DNA of 64,000 bases from Candidatus Fermentibacterota bacterium (GTDB lineage: Bacteria > Fermentibacterota > Fermentibacteria > Fermentibacterales > JCC-6). Shown in pieces: positions 53,970-64,000 of the stretch. The DNA lies in NCBI GenBank assembly GCA_014728175.1, contig WJMA01000003.1, forward strand, positions 1 through 64,000, read 5' to 3'. The notes below the pieces were generated by a model, which saw nothing but the letters and a program-made list of their open reading frames with translations, made no database searches and was not told the origin of the DNA. The position numbers and the translations under genes were made by a program. The first letter of the stretch is position 1. Every line of letters starts with the position of its first letter.

Positions 53970-56741
<2,772 letters not shown>

Positions 56742-56859: not shown

Positions 56860-58029
56860 TTAGGTCTTACGGGACCACATGAAGCAGACGAAATCCTCTA
56901 TCTCTCTTCGCTCGGACTCGTTCCTGGGAGCGATTCTGTCCAGGACCCAGGCCGCCGCGTCGCCCGCCGTGTCGAACTCGTGCAGCTTCCTGGCGACACT
57001 TCCCAGCACCTCGGCCAGCTCTTCCCTTCTGACCAGGCTGGATAGGGCGGAACCCTCCTCGGCCGCCTCCGCCAGCAGGTCGCCGGGAGCGGTCAGATCG
57101 ACCTGGGATGAGAGCCTCTTGTAATGCTCCCGCAACTGGCTCGCGCTGATCCCGTACTCTTTGGCCAGCTCTTCCTGGGTCAGGTGGGGGCCGTTCCTGG
57201 TAACCGCGTACTCCAGGGCGGCGGCCCATATCTCGGCCTTGCGGCCCGAAGGGGTCTGCAGAGCGCAGAAGTGGTTCCATACGTCTCTGGCGTACCGGGC
57301 CCGGCTCTCCGGATATCCGTGTAGCTCCATCATGCCGGTGACCATGCCTCCCACCACCTCCTCCATGGGGAGGTCCTCGGTAGCCAGGGCCTTTCTCTTG
57401 AGTCGCACCCGGAGGGCCTCTATGCGCAGAAGGGTGTGCTCGATCCTGGTATCGAAGGGAGCCAGCTCCTTCGCCTGCAGAAGCAGGTGAAGGCTTTCCT
57501 CCAACCGTCCCGACTTGGCCTCCAGCAGGGCCAGGTAGGCCAGGGTGGCGGGTACTCTGTACCTCTCTCTCCTGGCGACTCCCAGCAGCAATCGCTCCGC
57601 CTCCCGGTCCCGGTTGCACATCAGGAGGACCAGGGCGAGCTTCCTCTTGGCATCCACGTCGTCCGGCAGCTCCTTGAGATATTCCTCCAGACAGGTCCTG
57701 GACCTCTCGAACCAGTCCAGCTTGAGGTAAACATCGGCGGCCAGAAGAAGCGCCGCCGGCCCGGGAACGCCGTGCCATTCGAAGTCGCTCATCCTCCGGG
57801 CGGCCTCTGCGGGACGGCCTCTCTCCAGCTCTATCTGGCACAGGTTGAGCACGGCCAGGTCCTGGTCGGACGTACCCCTGACCGCCGGGTCTGCCAGCAA
57901 CCGATTAAGGCCCTCCAGCGCCTGCTCGGTCTCTCCGGTGGATCTGGCCCTCTCCACCTGCTCCCAGAGCCAGCCGATCTTGTCGTCGTATCCCGACCCG
58001 CCGCTATCCGCTTTCTCTTCCTCAATCAT
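56860..58029 (-). CDS. TPR protein with C-terminal helix-turn-helix (DUF6398-like)
   Basis: A 389-aa soluble protein. The N-terminal two thirds (about 20-215) are helical repeats resembling TPR, e.g. RPAEAARRMSDFEWHGVP and KLALVLLMCNRDREAERLLLG in part. From about 235, RYARDVWNHFCALQTPSGRK, then EIWAAALEYAVTRNG and LTQEELAKEYGISASQLREH give a helix-turn-helix resembling DUF6398. It may bind DNA or RNA. The ATG at 58029 has GGTGAGAG and overlaps the PorU gene by 8 nt, so its expression is coupled to the peptidase. Function unknown. Confidence 0.6.
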   Translation of the reverse strand: MIEEEKADSGGSGYDDKIGWLWEQVERARSTGETEQALEGLNRLLADPAVRGTSDQDLAVLNLCQIELERGRPAEAARRMSDFEWHGVPGPAALLLAADVYLKLDWFERSRTCLEEYLKELPDDVDAKRKLALVLLMCNRDREAERLLLGVARRERYRVPATLAYLALLEAKSGRLEESLHLLLQAKELAPFDTRIEHTLLRIEALRVRLKRKALATEDLPMEEVVGGMVTGMMELHGYPESRARYARDVWNHFCALQTPSGRKAEIWAAALEYAVTRNGPHLTQEELAKEYGISASQLREHYKRLSSQVDLTAPGDLLAEAAEEGSALSSLVRREELAEVLGSVARKLHEFDTAGDAAAWVLDRIAPRNESERREIEDFVCFMWSRKT

Positions 58030-61000
58030 CTCTCACCACCGCCATTATGCCCGTAACCCGTGCCTCGGAGCCCAGCACCGACGCGGTCTCGGAGCTGGCC
58101 GCGATGCTGTACACGTAGGTACCCGACGCCAATGGATCTCCGTCGGCGTCCAGCCCGTCCCACATAATCTGATTGTAACCCTGGGAGCAATGGGAGGAAA
58201 GTGTGCGCAGCCTTCTGCCGGTGACCGTGAACAGGTAAACCTCTACGTAGGCATCACCCGAAAGGTTGAAGCTGAAGCACCGGCGACCGCTTCCGGGGTT
58301 GGGATAGACCAGTGCCTGGTCCACGCTAAGGCCGGCCTTCTGCAGCACGAACACCTCCAGAGTATCCAGGGACATGTTTCCCATCCCGTCCAGGCTTCTC
58401 AGGATGAACCGGTGCTCGCCCTCCGACAGCTGCTGCACCTCGTAGCTCAAACGTCCCACGGTCGAGCTGCCACTCAAGTAGTAGAACTGCGGCCCTACGT
58501 CTACCCCCGTCCCGTCGATGAACAGAGTCAGCTGTCTGCCCTCGCCTCCCAGGAAGCAGATGCCGCTCTCGTCCTCCAGCTCCGCCTCCAGCACCAACTC
58601 ACCGGTTACCCTTGGTCTGTCGATCTCTCTATAGCCCCGGATCCACATTTCCCCGGACGGACCGGTGCTGTCGTTTCCGGCCGGGCTACCCTCCACCAGC
58701 TCCAGGGGATCCAGGTACGAGTTCACCACGGGGCTGTCCGCCACCCAGGTCGCTGTGGCCCTGGCCAGCGAGCCCGGCCTGGCCTGCACGGGGACGAAGC
58801 AATCGAATCCCAGCTCGCCCCCCTCCACGCTGACCCATCCTTTGAATATGGGGCCGCCGTAGCTCAGGTAGTCTATTACAGGCCCTCCCAGAGTGGTGTA
58901 GGAGGTGTCCGTGGACGACTCGTCCACCCGGGCGAAGGCCGGGCCCTGACCGGGGAAGCCCGTCCCCTCGAATCCGCAGCGCTCGCCCGTCCTCAGCTCC
59001 CCGCCCTGGCAGAAGAGCAGGGCTCCGGTATCCGGCCGGGCGATCCCCAGGTCGGGCAGGCCCATCAGGACGTAGTACCTGTCGTTCGATGAGTAGCTGG
59101 AAGAGAGAACCTTAGCCGTCCACAGGGCCTGGCCCATGGTGAGGTCCTCACTTCGGTACAGTGAGTCGATCAGGTTCCTGGCCATGTTGTAGTTGCCGCC
59201 ACTGAACGTCCCCCTGGTAGCGGCGATGGAGGATATGGCGCCGCCGGATGGCAGAGTCACCAGGTCCTCACCTATGCATTCCCTTCCCGGATCGTCGAAC
59301 CGGCCCACGTCGCAGGTGCCCCAGTAGGTCAGGGGCAGCCGGGGCCCGTTGGACAGCGACGGGACGTCCTCGCCTCGGAGAAGCTTCTCGTGGGTTATCT
59401 GCCGGGCCGACCCGTGTCCCAAAAAGGTCAGGAACCCGTAACCTCGTCCGTAATCCTCTATGAAATCGTTTCTGGCCTCCACCTTCTCCGGATGGCCGCC
59501 TCCTCCGGGCCAGGGATACTCTATGAGGTAGAACTTCCTCCTCTCCAGGTACCGGGGGGTGACGTCCTCCGCAAGGCTCTCGCAATCTACGGTGTGAGTC
59601 ACCTCGCTCTGGTTCATGCCGTTGCCCCACTCGTCGTCCGCCACCAGGATGATCCGATTCACCCATTCCCCGCAGCTTTGGCCGGAGCGATAGGCAAGTA
59701 CCTTGGCCGTAACCGTGCCCAGGTCGGACAGGTCGTCGACCGGAAGCCTGCCTATGGGTACCTCGGGCAATACGTCGCCCTCGTGGGTCATGACGTAGTA
59801 GTCGTCGCTGCAGCATCCCCCCTCCCTTATTCCGAAGATCAGCATGGTGTAAGGGGGCACAAGCACAGGCTCCACCGTACTCCGGCCCAGATTGTCGTAA
59901 TGTCCGTCCCCCACCAGGGTCACCGAGGAGAGACCCGGCTCCCAGGTGTCCTGTCCCCAGGCGATGGCGGACCTGATCGCTCCCGGATCCGTCAATCCCC
60001 CGTTGAACTCGTCGTAGATCTCCCTGGTGGTGGCCACCACCGGCTCACACCCCTGTTCCTCCAGAATCCGGACCAATCCCCATACCCCGTCGTAGAGCTC
60101 CTCGGGTACCACGATCATCCGATCGCCCCCGTCCACCGTGGCCACCAGCCTTCCGGGCGAGGCGGGCCGGATCGAGTCCGCGCTCATCCAGTCGGTCTCG
60201 TCCGCTACCAGGATCCTGGTGGTGCTGTCCACCGTCAGGGAGAAGCTCAGCTCGCCATCGTGGTAAGAGGTCTGGGTAAGCATCGCCGGATCGTCGAAGC
60301 CGGTCAGGTCGAATGCGGTGTGCTCGGGGGAAACCTCGGTCAGCATCATGGTGAGCTGGCCCGAGGCACCGATTCCCGGATACAGGACCGAGCCCAACAA
60401 GGGCGCTCCGGCGCAGCCGTAAGCCCCGGAGACGTGGTCGATGCCCAACCTGGACCCCTCGTCACCTCCCGCGAGGGTAACCGAAAGGGTGCTGGATTCG
60501 TACAAAGGCACCTGCTCGACCCTGACGGTCGTCTGTCTGATCCCGTTCCAGCTTCTCTGGGCTACCAGGCTGTCATCGAGACGAACGTCAACCAGGTAGT
60601 ATCCGGAGGAGACGGAGAGCAGGTCCAGCTCCAGGTCGCCGATACCCGAAGCGCCGGACAGGCCCAGCTCCCTCTCCCATGATTCTCCCACCTCCAGAAC
60701 GTCCCAGATCCATCCGTCTTCGGTCTCGTAGGTGGCCTCGCGTACGCTGTCCCGCTCCAACCAATACGGTCGGGCCATGGACGGGCCGTACTGGGGCCAG
60801 CCCTGGGGTGCCGCCGCTCTCTCTTCCATCCGGCTTCCCGGCTGGCCGCCCCAGGTTAGCCAGTAGACGTTGTGCGAGGCGTAGCGATGCCCCATCCTGA
60901 TCAGGCTGTCCCCCGAGGGCTCCCACCGGTCCAGCCCTCTGGCCAGGAAGCGGACCTGGTCCTGCGGGTCGAAGCTTCCGTCGGAGTCCACGTCCCGGAC

Positions 61001-61798
61001 CATTATCGACACCTCGTTCACCTGATGCTCGGCTCCCGGCTCGTCGGGGAACATCTCGCCGGGGCCGGCAAGCATCCGGAGGGTGGCGACGTCGCAGCCC
61101 TCCAGGTCGCATCCCACCTGAACGAGCTCCTCGCAGGATACGCTGTACGGACCGCCGACGGTAAACGCTATCCTGGCCCAGGGCAAACCCCAGAACGGGC
61201 TCTCCGCTCTCCGGCGCCGGGGGGTCGGCCAGAACGGCACATGATCGGGAAGAATCAGTCTCAGCAGCCGGTTGTTTCCCACCTCCTCCGACCCCGGAGT
61301 GGTCGGCCAGCGCAGGGACAGCTCCACGGAGGAGGCCCAGGAGGAAAGGTCTTCACCCACCGCGGGGTAAATCTCGATCAGAGCCACCCTGGTCCCCGCC
61401 AGGTTGGTCAGAGCCTGGAGGCGAACGTGCTCCGTCGGGCCTTCCCGAGGTGGAGCGGGTATCTCCAGGGTTTCCAGCCCCCGCCCGGTTATCCGGGGAA
61501 ACCTCGTCGAGAACGTTTCCACCGGCACTGATGCGGCTGCCCTAACCCGATAGGAAAGCTCCGGTTCCACCCCCGGAGGCACGGGCACCACCAGCCTTCG
61601 GGCCGGTCGTATCGGCTCGCCCTCTCTGCAGCGAAGGCTGAGGCCGGGTACCATGGGCACCCTTCCCCGGGTGGTCGGAACCGTAAACGGAGCCGGAAAC
61701 TCTATCCTGGCCGACAACCCGGACTCGGTGGACCGAACGATCTCCACACCGCCGCCGGCGGATACCAACGACAGCAGGAAGAGCAGAGCGAAGCTCAA
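58022..61798 (-). CDS. porU: PorU-like C25 peptidase, type IX secretion system sortase
   Basis: A 1258-aa exported protein. The start is TTG at 61798, one nucleotide after the sirtuin stop, and the signal peptide spans about residues 1-15. Residues about 20-520 are a long beta-rich prodomain. The C25 domain (about 540-960) has LVGDGHYDN, the His795 motif FLGHGSARQ and the Cys829 motif WGTCDVGRFDD, with RLPLTYWGTC wording as in PorU. Residues about 1165-1258 form a FlgD-like Ig domain (YNQIMWDGLDADGDPLASG). PorU cleaves the sorting domain of T9SS cargo and attaches it to the cell surface. It overlaps the TPR-HTH gene. Confidence 0.85.
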   Translation of the reverse strand: MSFALLFLLSLVSAGGGVEIVRSTESGLSARIEFPAPFTVPTTRGRVPMVPGLSLRCREGEPIRPARRLVVPVPPGVEPELSYRVRAAASVPVETFSTRFPRITGRGLETLEIPAPPREGPTEHVRLQALTNLAGTRVALIEIYPAVGEDLSSWASSVELSLRWPTTPGSEEVGNNRLLRLILPDHVPFWPTPRRRRAESPFWGLPWARIAFTVGGPYSVSCEELVQVGCDLEGCDVATLRMLAGPGEMFPDEPGAEHQVNEVSIMVRDVDSDGSFDPQDQVRFLARGLDRWEPSGDSLIRMGHRYASHNVYWLTWGGQPGSRMEERAAAPQGWPQYGPSMARPYWLERDSVREATYETEDGWIWDVLEVGESWERELGLSGASGIGDLELDLLSVSSGYYLVDVRLDDSLVAQRSWNGIRQTTVRVEQVPLYESSTLSVTLAGGDEGSRLGIDHVSGAYGCAGAPLLGSVLYPGIGASGQLTMMLTEVSPEHTAFDLTGFDDPAMLTQTSYHDGELSFSLTVDSTTRILVADETDWMSADSIRPASPGRLVATVDGGDRMIVVPEELYDGVWGLVRILEEQGCEPVVATTREIYDEFNGGLTDPGAIRSAIAWGQDTWEPGLSSVTLVGDGHYDNLGRSTVEPVLVPPYTMLIFGIREGGCCSDDYYVMTHEGDVLPEVPIGRLPVDDLSDLGTVTAKVLAYRSGQSCGEWVNRIILVADDEWGNGMNQSEVTHTVDCESLAEDVTPRYLERRKFYLIEYPWPGGGGHPEKVEARNDFIEDYGRGYGFLTFLGHGSARQITHEKLLRGEDVPSLSNGPRLPLTYWGTCDVGRFDDPGRECIGEDLVTLPSGGAISSIAATRGTFSGGNYNMARNLIDSLYRSEDLTMGQALWTAKVLSSSYSSNDRYYVLMGLPDLGIARPDTGALLFCQGGELRTGERCGFEGTGFPGQGPAFARVDESSTDTSYTTLGGPVIDYLSYGGPIFKGWVSVEGGELGFDCFVPVQARPGSLARATATWVADSPVVNSYLDPLELVEGSPAGNDSTGPSGEMWIRGYREIDRPRVTGELVLEAELEDESGICFLGGEGRQLTLFIDGTGVDVGPQFYYLSGSSTVGRLSYEVQQLSEGEHRFILRSLDGMGNMSLDTLEVFVLQKAGLSVDQALVYPNPGSGRRCFSFNLSGDAYVEVYLFTVTGRRLRTLSSHCSQGYNQIMWDGLDADGDPLASGTYVYSIAASSETASVLGSEARVTGIMAVVRDD

Positions 61799-61799
61799 A

Positions 61800-62540
61800 T
61801 CACCATCCCTCGAGCAGCAGGGGAAGCGTCTCCGCGGCTCCTCCGGAGACGTGCAACACCCCCGGCTCTCCGCTCAGAGGAGTGGCCTCGGGGTTTATCT
61901 CCAGCACGTGGCCCCCGCGGGACAGGGTCCGATAGGGGATCGAGGCTGCCGGAAACACTACCATCGAGGTTCCGACCACCAGCATGAGATCGCAGGAATC
62001 GGCTAGGTCGATGGCCCTGGAGATGGCTTCCACGGGCAGAGGTTCTCCGAACAACACCACGTCCGGCCGGAGGACGGCCCCGCACTCGCATCTGGGAGGC
62101 AGCTCCTCCAGAAGCTCTGGCTCCAGGGGATAGGTCCTGCCCGGCTCCTCCATGCAGGATACCGTTCTGAGCGTACCGTGAAGCTCCACCACCTCCGATG
62201 AGCCCGCCCGGTGGTGGAGACCGTCGACGTTCTGGGTTATCACGGGTAGAGACCCCAGCCTCCGCTCGGCCTCGACCAGGGCGTGGTATCCCTCGTGAGG
62301 CTCTACCTCTCCGTATCGAACGAGCCTTTCGCGATACCATTCCCAGACCAGCCTCGGGTTCTTGCGAAGCGCGCCCGGCGTTGCCAGGTCCTCCGCCCTG
62401 TACTCCCTCCAGAATCCCTCCTCGCCCCGGAAGGTGCGTATGCCGCACTCCTTGGACATTCCGGCCCCGGTGAAGGCCGCCGGCGACTCCGATTCGGACA
62501 GCAGCCGCCTTGCGCGTCTCAAGAGCTCGTCGTCAGTCAT
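61800..62540 (-). CDS. cobB: SIR2-family NAD-dependent protein deacylase (sirtuin, CobB-like)
   Basis: A 246-aa enzyme that removes acyl groups from lysines using NAD. FTGAGMSKECGIRTFRG and TQNVDGLHHRAG carry the NAD site and catalytic His. YRER (residues near 70) matches the YxxR pattern of class III sirtuins such as SIRT5 and CobB, which prefer succinyl- or malonyl-lysine. The zinc motif is incomplete: the first Cys pair is C-M-E-E, and the second is CEC. I start it at ATG 62540, overlapping the upstream PorU-like gene by 8 nt. The stop is one nucleotide before the porU start. Confidence 0.88.
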   Translation of the reverse strand: MTDDELLRRARRLLSESESPAAFTGAGMSKECGIRTFRGEEGFWREYRAEDLATPGALRKNPRLVWEWYRERLVRYGEVEPHEGYHALVEAERRLGSLPVITQNVDGLHHRAGSSEVVELHGTLRTVSCMEEPGRTYPLEPELLEELPPRCECGAVLRPDVVLFGEPLPVEAISRAIDLADSCDLMLVVGTSMVVFPAASIPYRTLSRGGHVLEINPEATPLSGEPGVLHVSGGAAETLPLLLEGW

Positions 62541-64000
62541 GGATAACGACCACCCTTCCCACATGGCTGGCCCTCGCACCGTCACTACCTAGGTAACTTA
62601 TCCTATACACGTATGTGCCGCTAGCCAGAGGGTCTCCGTCCAGATCGGATCCGTTCCATATCACCTGGTTGTAGCCGGGGTCGCATGCGACCGAGGAGCG
62701 CCATACGGTCCGCCCGGTAACCGTGTAAACGGCTATTCCGACGCTGCCCCCGGAGGAGGCTCTGAAGCTGAAGCAGCGGAGCCCGTCTCCAGGATTGGGG
62801 TATACCAGAACCTCCGATATGGCTTCCCCGGGAGCGTCCTCCATCTCGAAGCGCAGGGTGTCGCGGGCTCCATTGCCGATTCCGTCCCAGGCGGCGACAA
62901 TCACAGTGTGGGATCCGGTGCCGAGGCCGGGAAGGGCCACTTCCAGGTCTCCGGTGGTGCTGCTGCCCGGACGGTAGGAAAAATCATCGCTGACGTCGTA
63001 TCCATTGGCGTCGAGGTCCATCATCACCGCCCGGCCCGCACCTCCCCCCATGGAGCATATACCACTGAGGTCCGAGAGCAGGCCACGCAGCAAGAGGTCC
63101 CCGTACACCCGGGGCTGGTCCTCTCCCCGGTGACCCTCCAGCCATAGCTCTATCTCGGGCGGGTCATCGTCCTGGACATGGCCCCCGGCGTCCACCAAAG
63201 GCACCCCTTCCAGGGAGGACATCTCGCTTCCTCCCGAATAGAGACCCGTGGCCCGGCATCGGGACAGGCTTCCGGTATCCGCCTGCAGCGGAACGAAGAA
63301 ATCGATCTCGTGCACCGGGCCGTCTCCCCGGCCTCTGCCCACGTAGAGGTCGTCGCCGTACCGGAGGTACCTCAGGACGGCCCCGCCCAGGCAGGTGTAG
63401 CTGGCGGTGTCCGCGCTCTCGGTCACCCGCAGGAAGGAGGTGCCCTTCCTTGCGAACGTGGCGGTAACCGTATCCTTGCGTCCCCTGAGCAGAGTGTCTC
63501 CGGACACCACCAACTCGGTGGGGGCGGGGTCCGGCAGCGGCGGGTAGACCCCTCCGTCCCCCAGAAGAACGTACCTCATGTCCCGGTCCTCCAGCTTGGC
63601 CGCCCACAGGGCCTCCGCCACGGTCGCCCCGGCCGTCCGGTCGTAGAGCAGTGTGTACAGGTCCTCAAACAGCCTCCTGTTCTGGAACCCGAAGGAAGCC
63701 CCGGTGGAGGCCACCACGGTGATCGCGCCACCTTCCGGCTCACTCTGGAACTCCTCGGCAAAGCAGTCGGCCGACACCAGGCTGAACCTCCCCGCGTCGC
63801 AGGTTCCCAGGAGCATCACGGGCAGCCGCGGATCGTTCCTCAGCCTGGCGGCGTCCGAGGAGACCAGCAGCCTCTCCGCCGCCAGCTGTTGGTAAGAGCC
63901 GTGCCCCATGTAAGCCATGGACCTGCAGCCCTCGCTCAGCCTCTCTATCAGGTCCTCCCTGGCCTGGGGTTTCTCCGGGTGGGGGCCCCCGGGGGTGGTA
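62533..64000 (-). CDS. PorU-like C25 peptidase paralogue, 5' end beyond the window
   Basis: Partial gene: the frame is open through the right window edge, with T-P-G-G-P-H-P-E-K upstream matching GGGHPEK of the porU neighbour. The visible part (about 489 residues) has the His motif YMGHGSYQQL and the Cys motif LLGTCDAGRF, then a beta-rich linker and a FlgD-like C-terminal domain (YNQVIWNGSDLDGDPLASG). It is a clear paralogue of the 58022-61798 protein. It overlaps the sirtuin gene by 8 nt. Its role may be as PorU, or a secreted C25 protease; without the N-terminus this is open. Confidence 0.8.
   Translation of the reverse strand, partial: TTPGGPHPEKPQAREDLIERLSEGCRSMAYMGHGSYQQLAAERLLVSSDAARLRNDPRLPVMLLGTCDAGRFSLVSADCFAEEFQSEPEGGAITVVASTGASFGFQNRRLFEDLYTLLYDRTAGATVAEALWAAKLEDRDMRYVLLGDGGVYPPLPDPAPTELVVSGDTLLRGRKDTVTATFARKGTSFLRVTESADTASYTCLGGAVLRYLRYGDDLYVGRGRGDGPVHEIDFFVPLQADTGSLSRCRATGLYSGGSEMSSLEGVPLVDAGGHVQDDDPPEIELWLEGHRGEDQPRVYGDLLLRGLLSDLSGICSMGGGAGRAVMMDLDANGYDVSDDFSYRPGSSTTGDLEVALPGLGTGSHTVIVAAWDGIGNGARDTLRFEMEDAPGEAISEVLVYPNPGDGLRCFSFRASSGGSVGIAVYTVTGRTVWRSSVACDPGYNQVIWNGSDLDGDPLASGTYVYRISYLGSDGARASHVGRVVVIHD

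Follow-up and report, generated by a model that had tools for sequence, protein, structure and literature searches.

Why should a gene for a lysine deacylase lie between two genes for PorU-like peptidases? Type IX secretion systems (T9SSs) are known mainly from Bacteroidota and their relatives. The locus that raises the question lies in a 64,000-nucleotide window (positions 1-64000 of the 172-kb contig C2) of a Fermentibacterota genome (G000; 2.6 Mb in 67 contigs), and comprises four co-directional minus-strand genes that encode, in order of transcription, the PorU-like peptidase A, a Sir2 family protein, the PorU-like peptidase B, and a tetratricopeptide repeat (TPR) protein (Table 1). All parts belong to known families, and the arrangement appears new to us: the literature searched yielded neither a sirtuin-PorU operon nor a paper joining T9SS with Fermentibacter, and the passages in which a sirtuin and type IX secretion appear together concern regulation in Porphyromonas gingivalis.

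Gene layout and the PorU-like pair

The preliminary description had reported a four-gene cluster with an 8-nt overlap, a 1-nt gap (TGA-T-TTG, between Sir2 and B), and a second 8-nt overlap, and its coordinates and junctions are correct on the DNA. Gene A is cut by the window edge and was completed from the rest of contig C2. For Sir2, an upstream GTG at 62585 is an alternative start that we judged less likely than the ATG. Since the junctions overlap or abut, translational coupling of the four genes is predicted; we interpret them as a real, ancient operon, and the overlaps suggest a single transcript. Domain searches with Pfam and NCBIfam returned C25 with FlgD_ig/Por_Secre_tail, SIR2, and TPR. 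At the locus, RNA elements, tRNAs, a sigma-70 promoter, and clear terminators did not rise above chance, and PADLOC gave zero defence-system hits.

Table 1. Features discussed in the text. Plain positions refer to the window; others are prefixed by contig (C) or locus (L).
Feature	Position	Strand	Basis or remark
PorU-like peptidase A, C25 + FlgD-like/T9SS type A tail, C-terminal part	62533..64000	-	Pfam PF01364, NCBIfam PorU
PorU-like A, complete gene	C2:62533-66309 (L009:6534-10310:-)	-	1258 aa
A/Sir2 stop/start overlap	62533..62540	-	8 nt, ATGACTGA; read from DNA; tight junction kept in relatives
Sir2 family class III-type deacylase (CobB/SIRT5-like)	61800..62540	-	246 aa from ATG overlapping stop of A
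PorU-like peptidase B (C25 + FlgD_ig)	58022..61798	-	1258 aa; TTG start 1 nt after Sir2 stop
B/TPR stop/start overlap	58022..58029	-	8 nt, ATGATTGA; read from DNA
TPR protein, C-terminal TFIIB/cyclin-box-like domain	56860..58029	-	389 aa; TPR Pfam matches
TFIIB/cyclin-box-like domain of TPR protein	56863-57384	-	AF2 + Foldseek
Pyruvate,phosphate dikinase (PPDK)	53970..56741	-	TIGR01828, 1293 bits; syntenic; outside coupled unit
Unlinked distant sirtuin, G028	L126:7835-8569	-	Linked sirtuin lost
Unlinked distant sirtuin, G034	L127:8776-9504	+	Linked sirtuin also present
PorU-like gene, followed by PorV	C29:16106-18922		Breaks at contig end
PorU-like gene	C30:457-3267		Breaks at contig end
TPR + TFIIB/cyclin-box-like protein, Anaerolineae	L208:1396-2127	-	243 aa
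Long protein with TFIIB/cyclin-box-like module, another bacterium	L209:748-3192	-	
CotH kinase/lamin-tail/DUF4956/VTC block	L100:14430-19960; also L098, L117, L122, L123, L094		Gene maps

Both peptidases match the C25 family (PF01364; 6e-68 in B), and the NCBIfam PorU profile (NF033707; MEROPS C25) covers them nearly end to end, starting ahead of the C25 domain and running through the Ig-like tail. The scores, 387 bits for B and 340 bits for A, lie below the equivalog cut-off of 420 bits. The catalytic dyad is present in A as His803/Cys837, with the dyad column kept in 30/30 orthologues, and in B as His795/Cys829, with both residues kept in all 32 orthologues that cover the site. A T9SS-type C-terminal Ig-like domain is also present, with FlgD_ig over its cut-off in B and Por_Secre_tail scoring 19-25 bits, around the 23-bit cut-off. 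A joint tree places A and B in distinct clades, both in step with taxonomy, which makes the tandem pair older than the families. By these profiles the two are PorU-family paralogues rather than a porU-porV locus: the initial PorU labels hold for family membership, in profile and C25 dyad, whereas as equivalog assignments they fail on score and because porV lies elsewhere, and a tandem pair away from porV further sets A and B apart from the known sortase. PorU is a sortase that cuts off the C-terminal domain (CTD) of its cargo and joins the cargo to a lipopolysaccharide anchor. It acts at the cell surface on CTD-bearing cargo (PMC7468200, PMC8545088). In line with this, A and B are predicted to be exported and to work on the surface, probably as peptidases or transpeptidases in the maturation or anchoring of T9SS cargo.

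The secretion-system context assumed in the preliminary description is borne out at the level of the genome, which carries SprA/Sov (PF14349, 50 bits in a 1893-aa frame), several PorV-family genes (PorV, 234 bits), 20 C25 peptidase matches, and 81 Por_Secre_tail matches, and therefore likely encodes a T9SS. The GldM profile TIGR03517 had zero matches here and likewise zero in every control genome. A por-gene cluster at the locus itself, which had been named as a point to check, was not found: contig C2 gave no porV or sprA hit, and it is on contig C29 that a PorU-like gene immediately precedes PorV. In the relative G004, a third PorU paralogue likewise lies beside a PorV. Two side observations concern this gene set. 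The C29 gene and a very similar PorU-like gene on C30 are each cut off by a contig end, at the same residue in both, which looks as if the assembly had been split where an N-terminal region is repeated. The Por_Secre_tail and C25 matches also amount to a large T9SS-type cargo set, considering that the genome is small and lies outside Bacteroidota.

Conservation of the order and loss of the sirtuin

The arrangement was traced through 42 Fermentibacterota genomes from three families and nine genera, using three protein searches and gene maps. A and B share a contig in 33 of them, and Sir2 lies between the two in 30 of these 33 (counted from tables), so that the gene order, whose conservation the preliminary description had left to be checked, is kept across the phylum and uniqueness to the window genome is rejected. 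Four further genomes show one side of A-Sir2-B only, all in agreement with this order. Most genomes share the longer series of a divergent permease pair, A-Sir2-B-TPR, and PPDK-GGDEF, and a sirtuin of the linked clade was not found away from A and B in any of the 42. The A/Sir2 junction in relatives is most often exactly -4 nt, while the Sir2/B junction ranges from -7 to +2 nt where the start is clear and is exactly -4 nt in 17. These tight junctions persist although A and B share only about 35-50% protein identity among relatives, which argues against an accident of one genome, and the relatives' gene maps show no insertion inside A-Sir2-B-TPR. Outside the phylum, the 79 nearest sirtuin loci listed, some on short contigs, had no PorU-like or TPR-protein match nearby and thus lend no support to the same arrangement in other phyla.

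In the remaining three of the 33 genomes (G001, G005, and G028), the sirtuin is absent while A-B-TPR is kept, and G031, which the A tree places as sister to G028, lacks Sir2 genes altogether. The pattern implies at least one loss of the sirtuin with A, B, and TPR retained, in the G028 lineage, and up to three if the gene was ancestral; the sirtuin is thus dispensable for A and B. We also considered whether lysines had been lost together with the sirtuin, and rejected this for A, B, and the TPR protein, whose conserved lysines are unchanged in the sirtuin-less lineages.

The sirtuin and the TPR protein

The protein encoded between A and B matches the SIR2 domain (PF02146, 1e-44) and scores 251 bits, over the 243-bit cut-off, for the NCBIfam NAD-dependent protein deacylase subfamily. 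The motifs W-x-W-Y-x-x-R, GAGxS, NxD, and HG occur in 28/28 aligned linked sirtuins, which fits a class III (SIRT5/CobB) sirtuin in its Y-x-x-R acyl-pocket motif and excludes, for the phylum, the idea of a dead relic. Tyr102 and Arg105 of SIRT5 encode its preference for acidic acyl groups (PMC4811591), which suggests for the linked sirtuins a pocket of the SIRT5/CobB type that would accept acidic acyl groups such as succinyl and malonyl, plus acetyl. The likeness to CobB and SIRT5 is thus one of catalytic motifs, Y-x-x-R, and subfamily; the linked sirtuin differs from them in its CobB equivalog score (241, below the cut-off of 320), in its nearest solved structure, which is the archaeal Sir2-Af ahead of SIRT5 and CobB, and in the position of its gene between two C25 peptidases.

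The copy in the window itself deviates from all 27 linked relatives in the alignment, at two sites that are otherwise nearly invariant. Its active-site loop reads GAGMSKEC, where relatives have Ser for the final Cys (GAGxSxxS), and its zinc site comprises three Cys (C129, C151, and C153) with Pro at position 133, where the aligned linked relatives have all four and which also sets it apart from CobB and SIRT5. We do not take the missing Cys to exclude the protein from the Sir2 family, to which it is assigned by its SIR2 score and catalytic motifs, but with two odd residues at such sites the activity of this copy is not assured. Its sequence is 62% identical to the G004 sirtuin, with which the tree joins it (87/95), a grouping that could reflect recent transfer into G004 or, equally, vertical descent with an early-branching G000.

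In 33 of 34 carrier genomes, the linked sirtuin is the sole Sir2 gene, as would befit a general, housekeeping deacylase; no signal peptide was seen in it by eye. The exception, G034, additionally encodes a distant sirtuin type (36-37% identity) that lacks Y-x-x-R and is unlinked to A and B, a type found in the phylum also in G028.

For the TPR protein, an AF2 model (pLDDT 86) shows a confident TPR superhelix followed by an all-helical C-terminal domain. Foldseek with the whole protein returned TPR folds only, hence the C-terminal domain was folded alone (pLDDT 87). Its matches in the PDB are nearly all TFIIB and cyclin structures, the best at E 0.005 and none below E 0.001, and it superposes on 7ena and 1ais at 2.5-2.7 Å over about 91-93 columns. 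The TFIIB repeat PF00382 matches 19/22 homologues of the TPR protein weakly (best 3.8e-4), and a profile search of the PDB with the TPR protein gave archaeal TFB at E 0.004. We assign the C-terminus a TFIIB/cyclin-box-like fold with moderate confidence. Of the earlier designation TPR-HTH, the TPR part is supported by Pfam, whereas the supposed HTH is more probably this fold. The resemblance to TFIIB/cyclin-box proteins covers a single helical domain some 90 residues long, whereas the protein is bacterial, fused to TPRs, and without a TBP or archaeal-type transcription context. It is probably a cytoplasmic scaffold or regulator, and it offers a specific starting point for the study of bacterial cyclin-box folds. 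Similar modules were seen after TPR repeats in a short Anaerolineae protein, which indicates that the combined architecture is not restricted to the A-Sir2-B-TPR operon, and inside a long protein of another bacterium (Table 1).

Probable co-expression and its alternatives

The operon places the usual single sirtuin of the cell under the same translation as a PorU-type pair throughout the phylum. We consider it probable that this is an ancient coupled unit that co-expresses a class III deacylase of general function in the cytoplasm with an exported sortase pair, the deacylase having no direct enzymatic link to the pair. Ribosomes re-initiating at the overlaps would keep deacylase output in step with A and B; the latter would be exported to work on CTD cargo at the surface, with Sir2 and the TPR protein remaining in the cytoplasm. 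There, Sir2 would act as an NAD+-dependent lysine deacylase on general targets, with no working part in secretion or attachment, and the TPR protein with its TFIIB/cyclin-box-like domain would close the unit as scaffold or regulator. We favour co-expression over a direct enzymatic role because A and B survive without Sir2 and because Sir2 is normally the only sirtuin. Some points weigh against co-expression: a fortuitous housekeeping gene might be expected to have moved at least once, yet a linked-clade sirtuin was not found away from A and B; the precision of the junctions seems to exceed what plain neighbourhood inertia needs; and the window sirtuin carries its Cys in the loop and its Pro in the zinc site. 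If the link has no function, the locus illustrates how a housekeeping enzyme that can be dispensed with may be carried along in a conserved order of overlapping genes, a caution for guilt-by-association; if it has one, lysine acylation would become a point of control over surface-protein anchoring that can be tested outside Porphyromonas.

Within the second possibility, the preliminary description had suggested that the sirtuin could adjust the acylation of cargo or peptidases. This claim is unsupported by the evidence above, namely a usually sole sirtuin, without signal peptide by eye, whose loss in some lineages left A, B, and the TPR protein in place and their conserved lysines unchanged, and direct deacylation of peptidases, cargo, or TPR protein is accordingly possible but unsupported. 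In its broadest version, the enzyme would be a dedicated NAD+-dependent T9SS switch that removes acyl groups (succinyl or malonyl) from sortase precursors, cargo, or the TPR partner and thereby makes surface display depend on the cell's NAD+/acyl-CoA state; we regard such a switch as unlikely.

A reading without any functional tie, for which the chances are slimmer still, is that the region rearranges slowly, keeps unrelated neighbours together, and has overlaps that reflect compact genomes. The divergent pair of MacB/FtsX-type permease genes upstream of A, the PPDK gene about 120 nt downstream of the TPR gene in the window genome, and the GGDEF protein gene have no T9SS role and are as syntenic as the four genes themselves, so that gene order alone is weak evidence for shared function. 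These flanks are, however, separated by gaps of roughly 60-400 nt, divergently oriented, or interrupted by inserted genes (the CotH cluster), unlike the uninterrupted A-Sir2-B-TPR series, whose overlaps persist at about 40% protein identity.

It is improbable, too, that the sirtuin deacylates the TPR/TFIIB-like protein and that the latter in turn controls the operon or the T9SS. In favour of this, the TPR protein is conserved, predicted to stay in the cytoplasm, and equipped with a TFIIB-like domain, but DNA binding by this domain is only putative, cyclin boxes often bind proteins only, and in G001, G005, and G028 the protein outlasts the sirtuin with its conserved lysines intact. The model for such regulation comes from P. 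gingivalis, where the relevant passages report that CobB deacetylates the response regulator RprY and restores its DNA binding (PMC6032018), and describe RprY as a T9SS regulator (PMC8407419).

Least probable of all, in our estimate, is a direct role in which the sirtuin removes acyl groups from the PorU-like proteins, or from T9SS cargo, while these are still in the cytoplasm ahead of Sec export, and in this way adjusts how they mature. This reading is encouraged by the coupled position between A and B and by passages on P. gingivalis in which acetylation of the C25 peptidase pro-RgpB is reported as necessary for maturation and gingipains as succinylated (PMC8407419, PMC8674579), but opposed by the three genomes that keep A and B without the sirtuin, by the unchanged conserved lysines there, and by the later assignment of VimA, the principal enzyme in that precedent, to the synthesis of the sugar that links the cargo (PMC7468200). 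P. gingivalis offers a parallel in that lysine acylation is connected there with C25 proteases and T9SS regulation, whereas its precedents concern an acetylase and a response regulator rather than coupling of sirtuin and PorU genes.

In several genomes of genus g2, the TPR gene is immediately followed by genes for CotH kinase, lamin-tail domain, DUF4956, and VTC-domain proteins, a block that displaces PPDK (Table 1).
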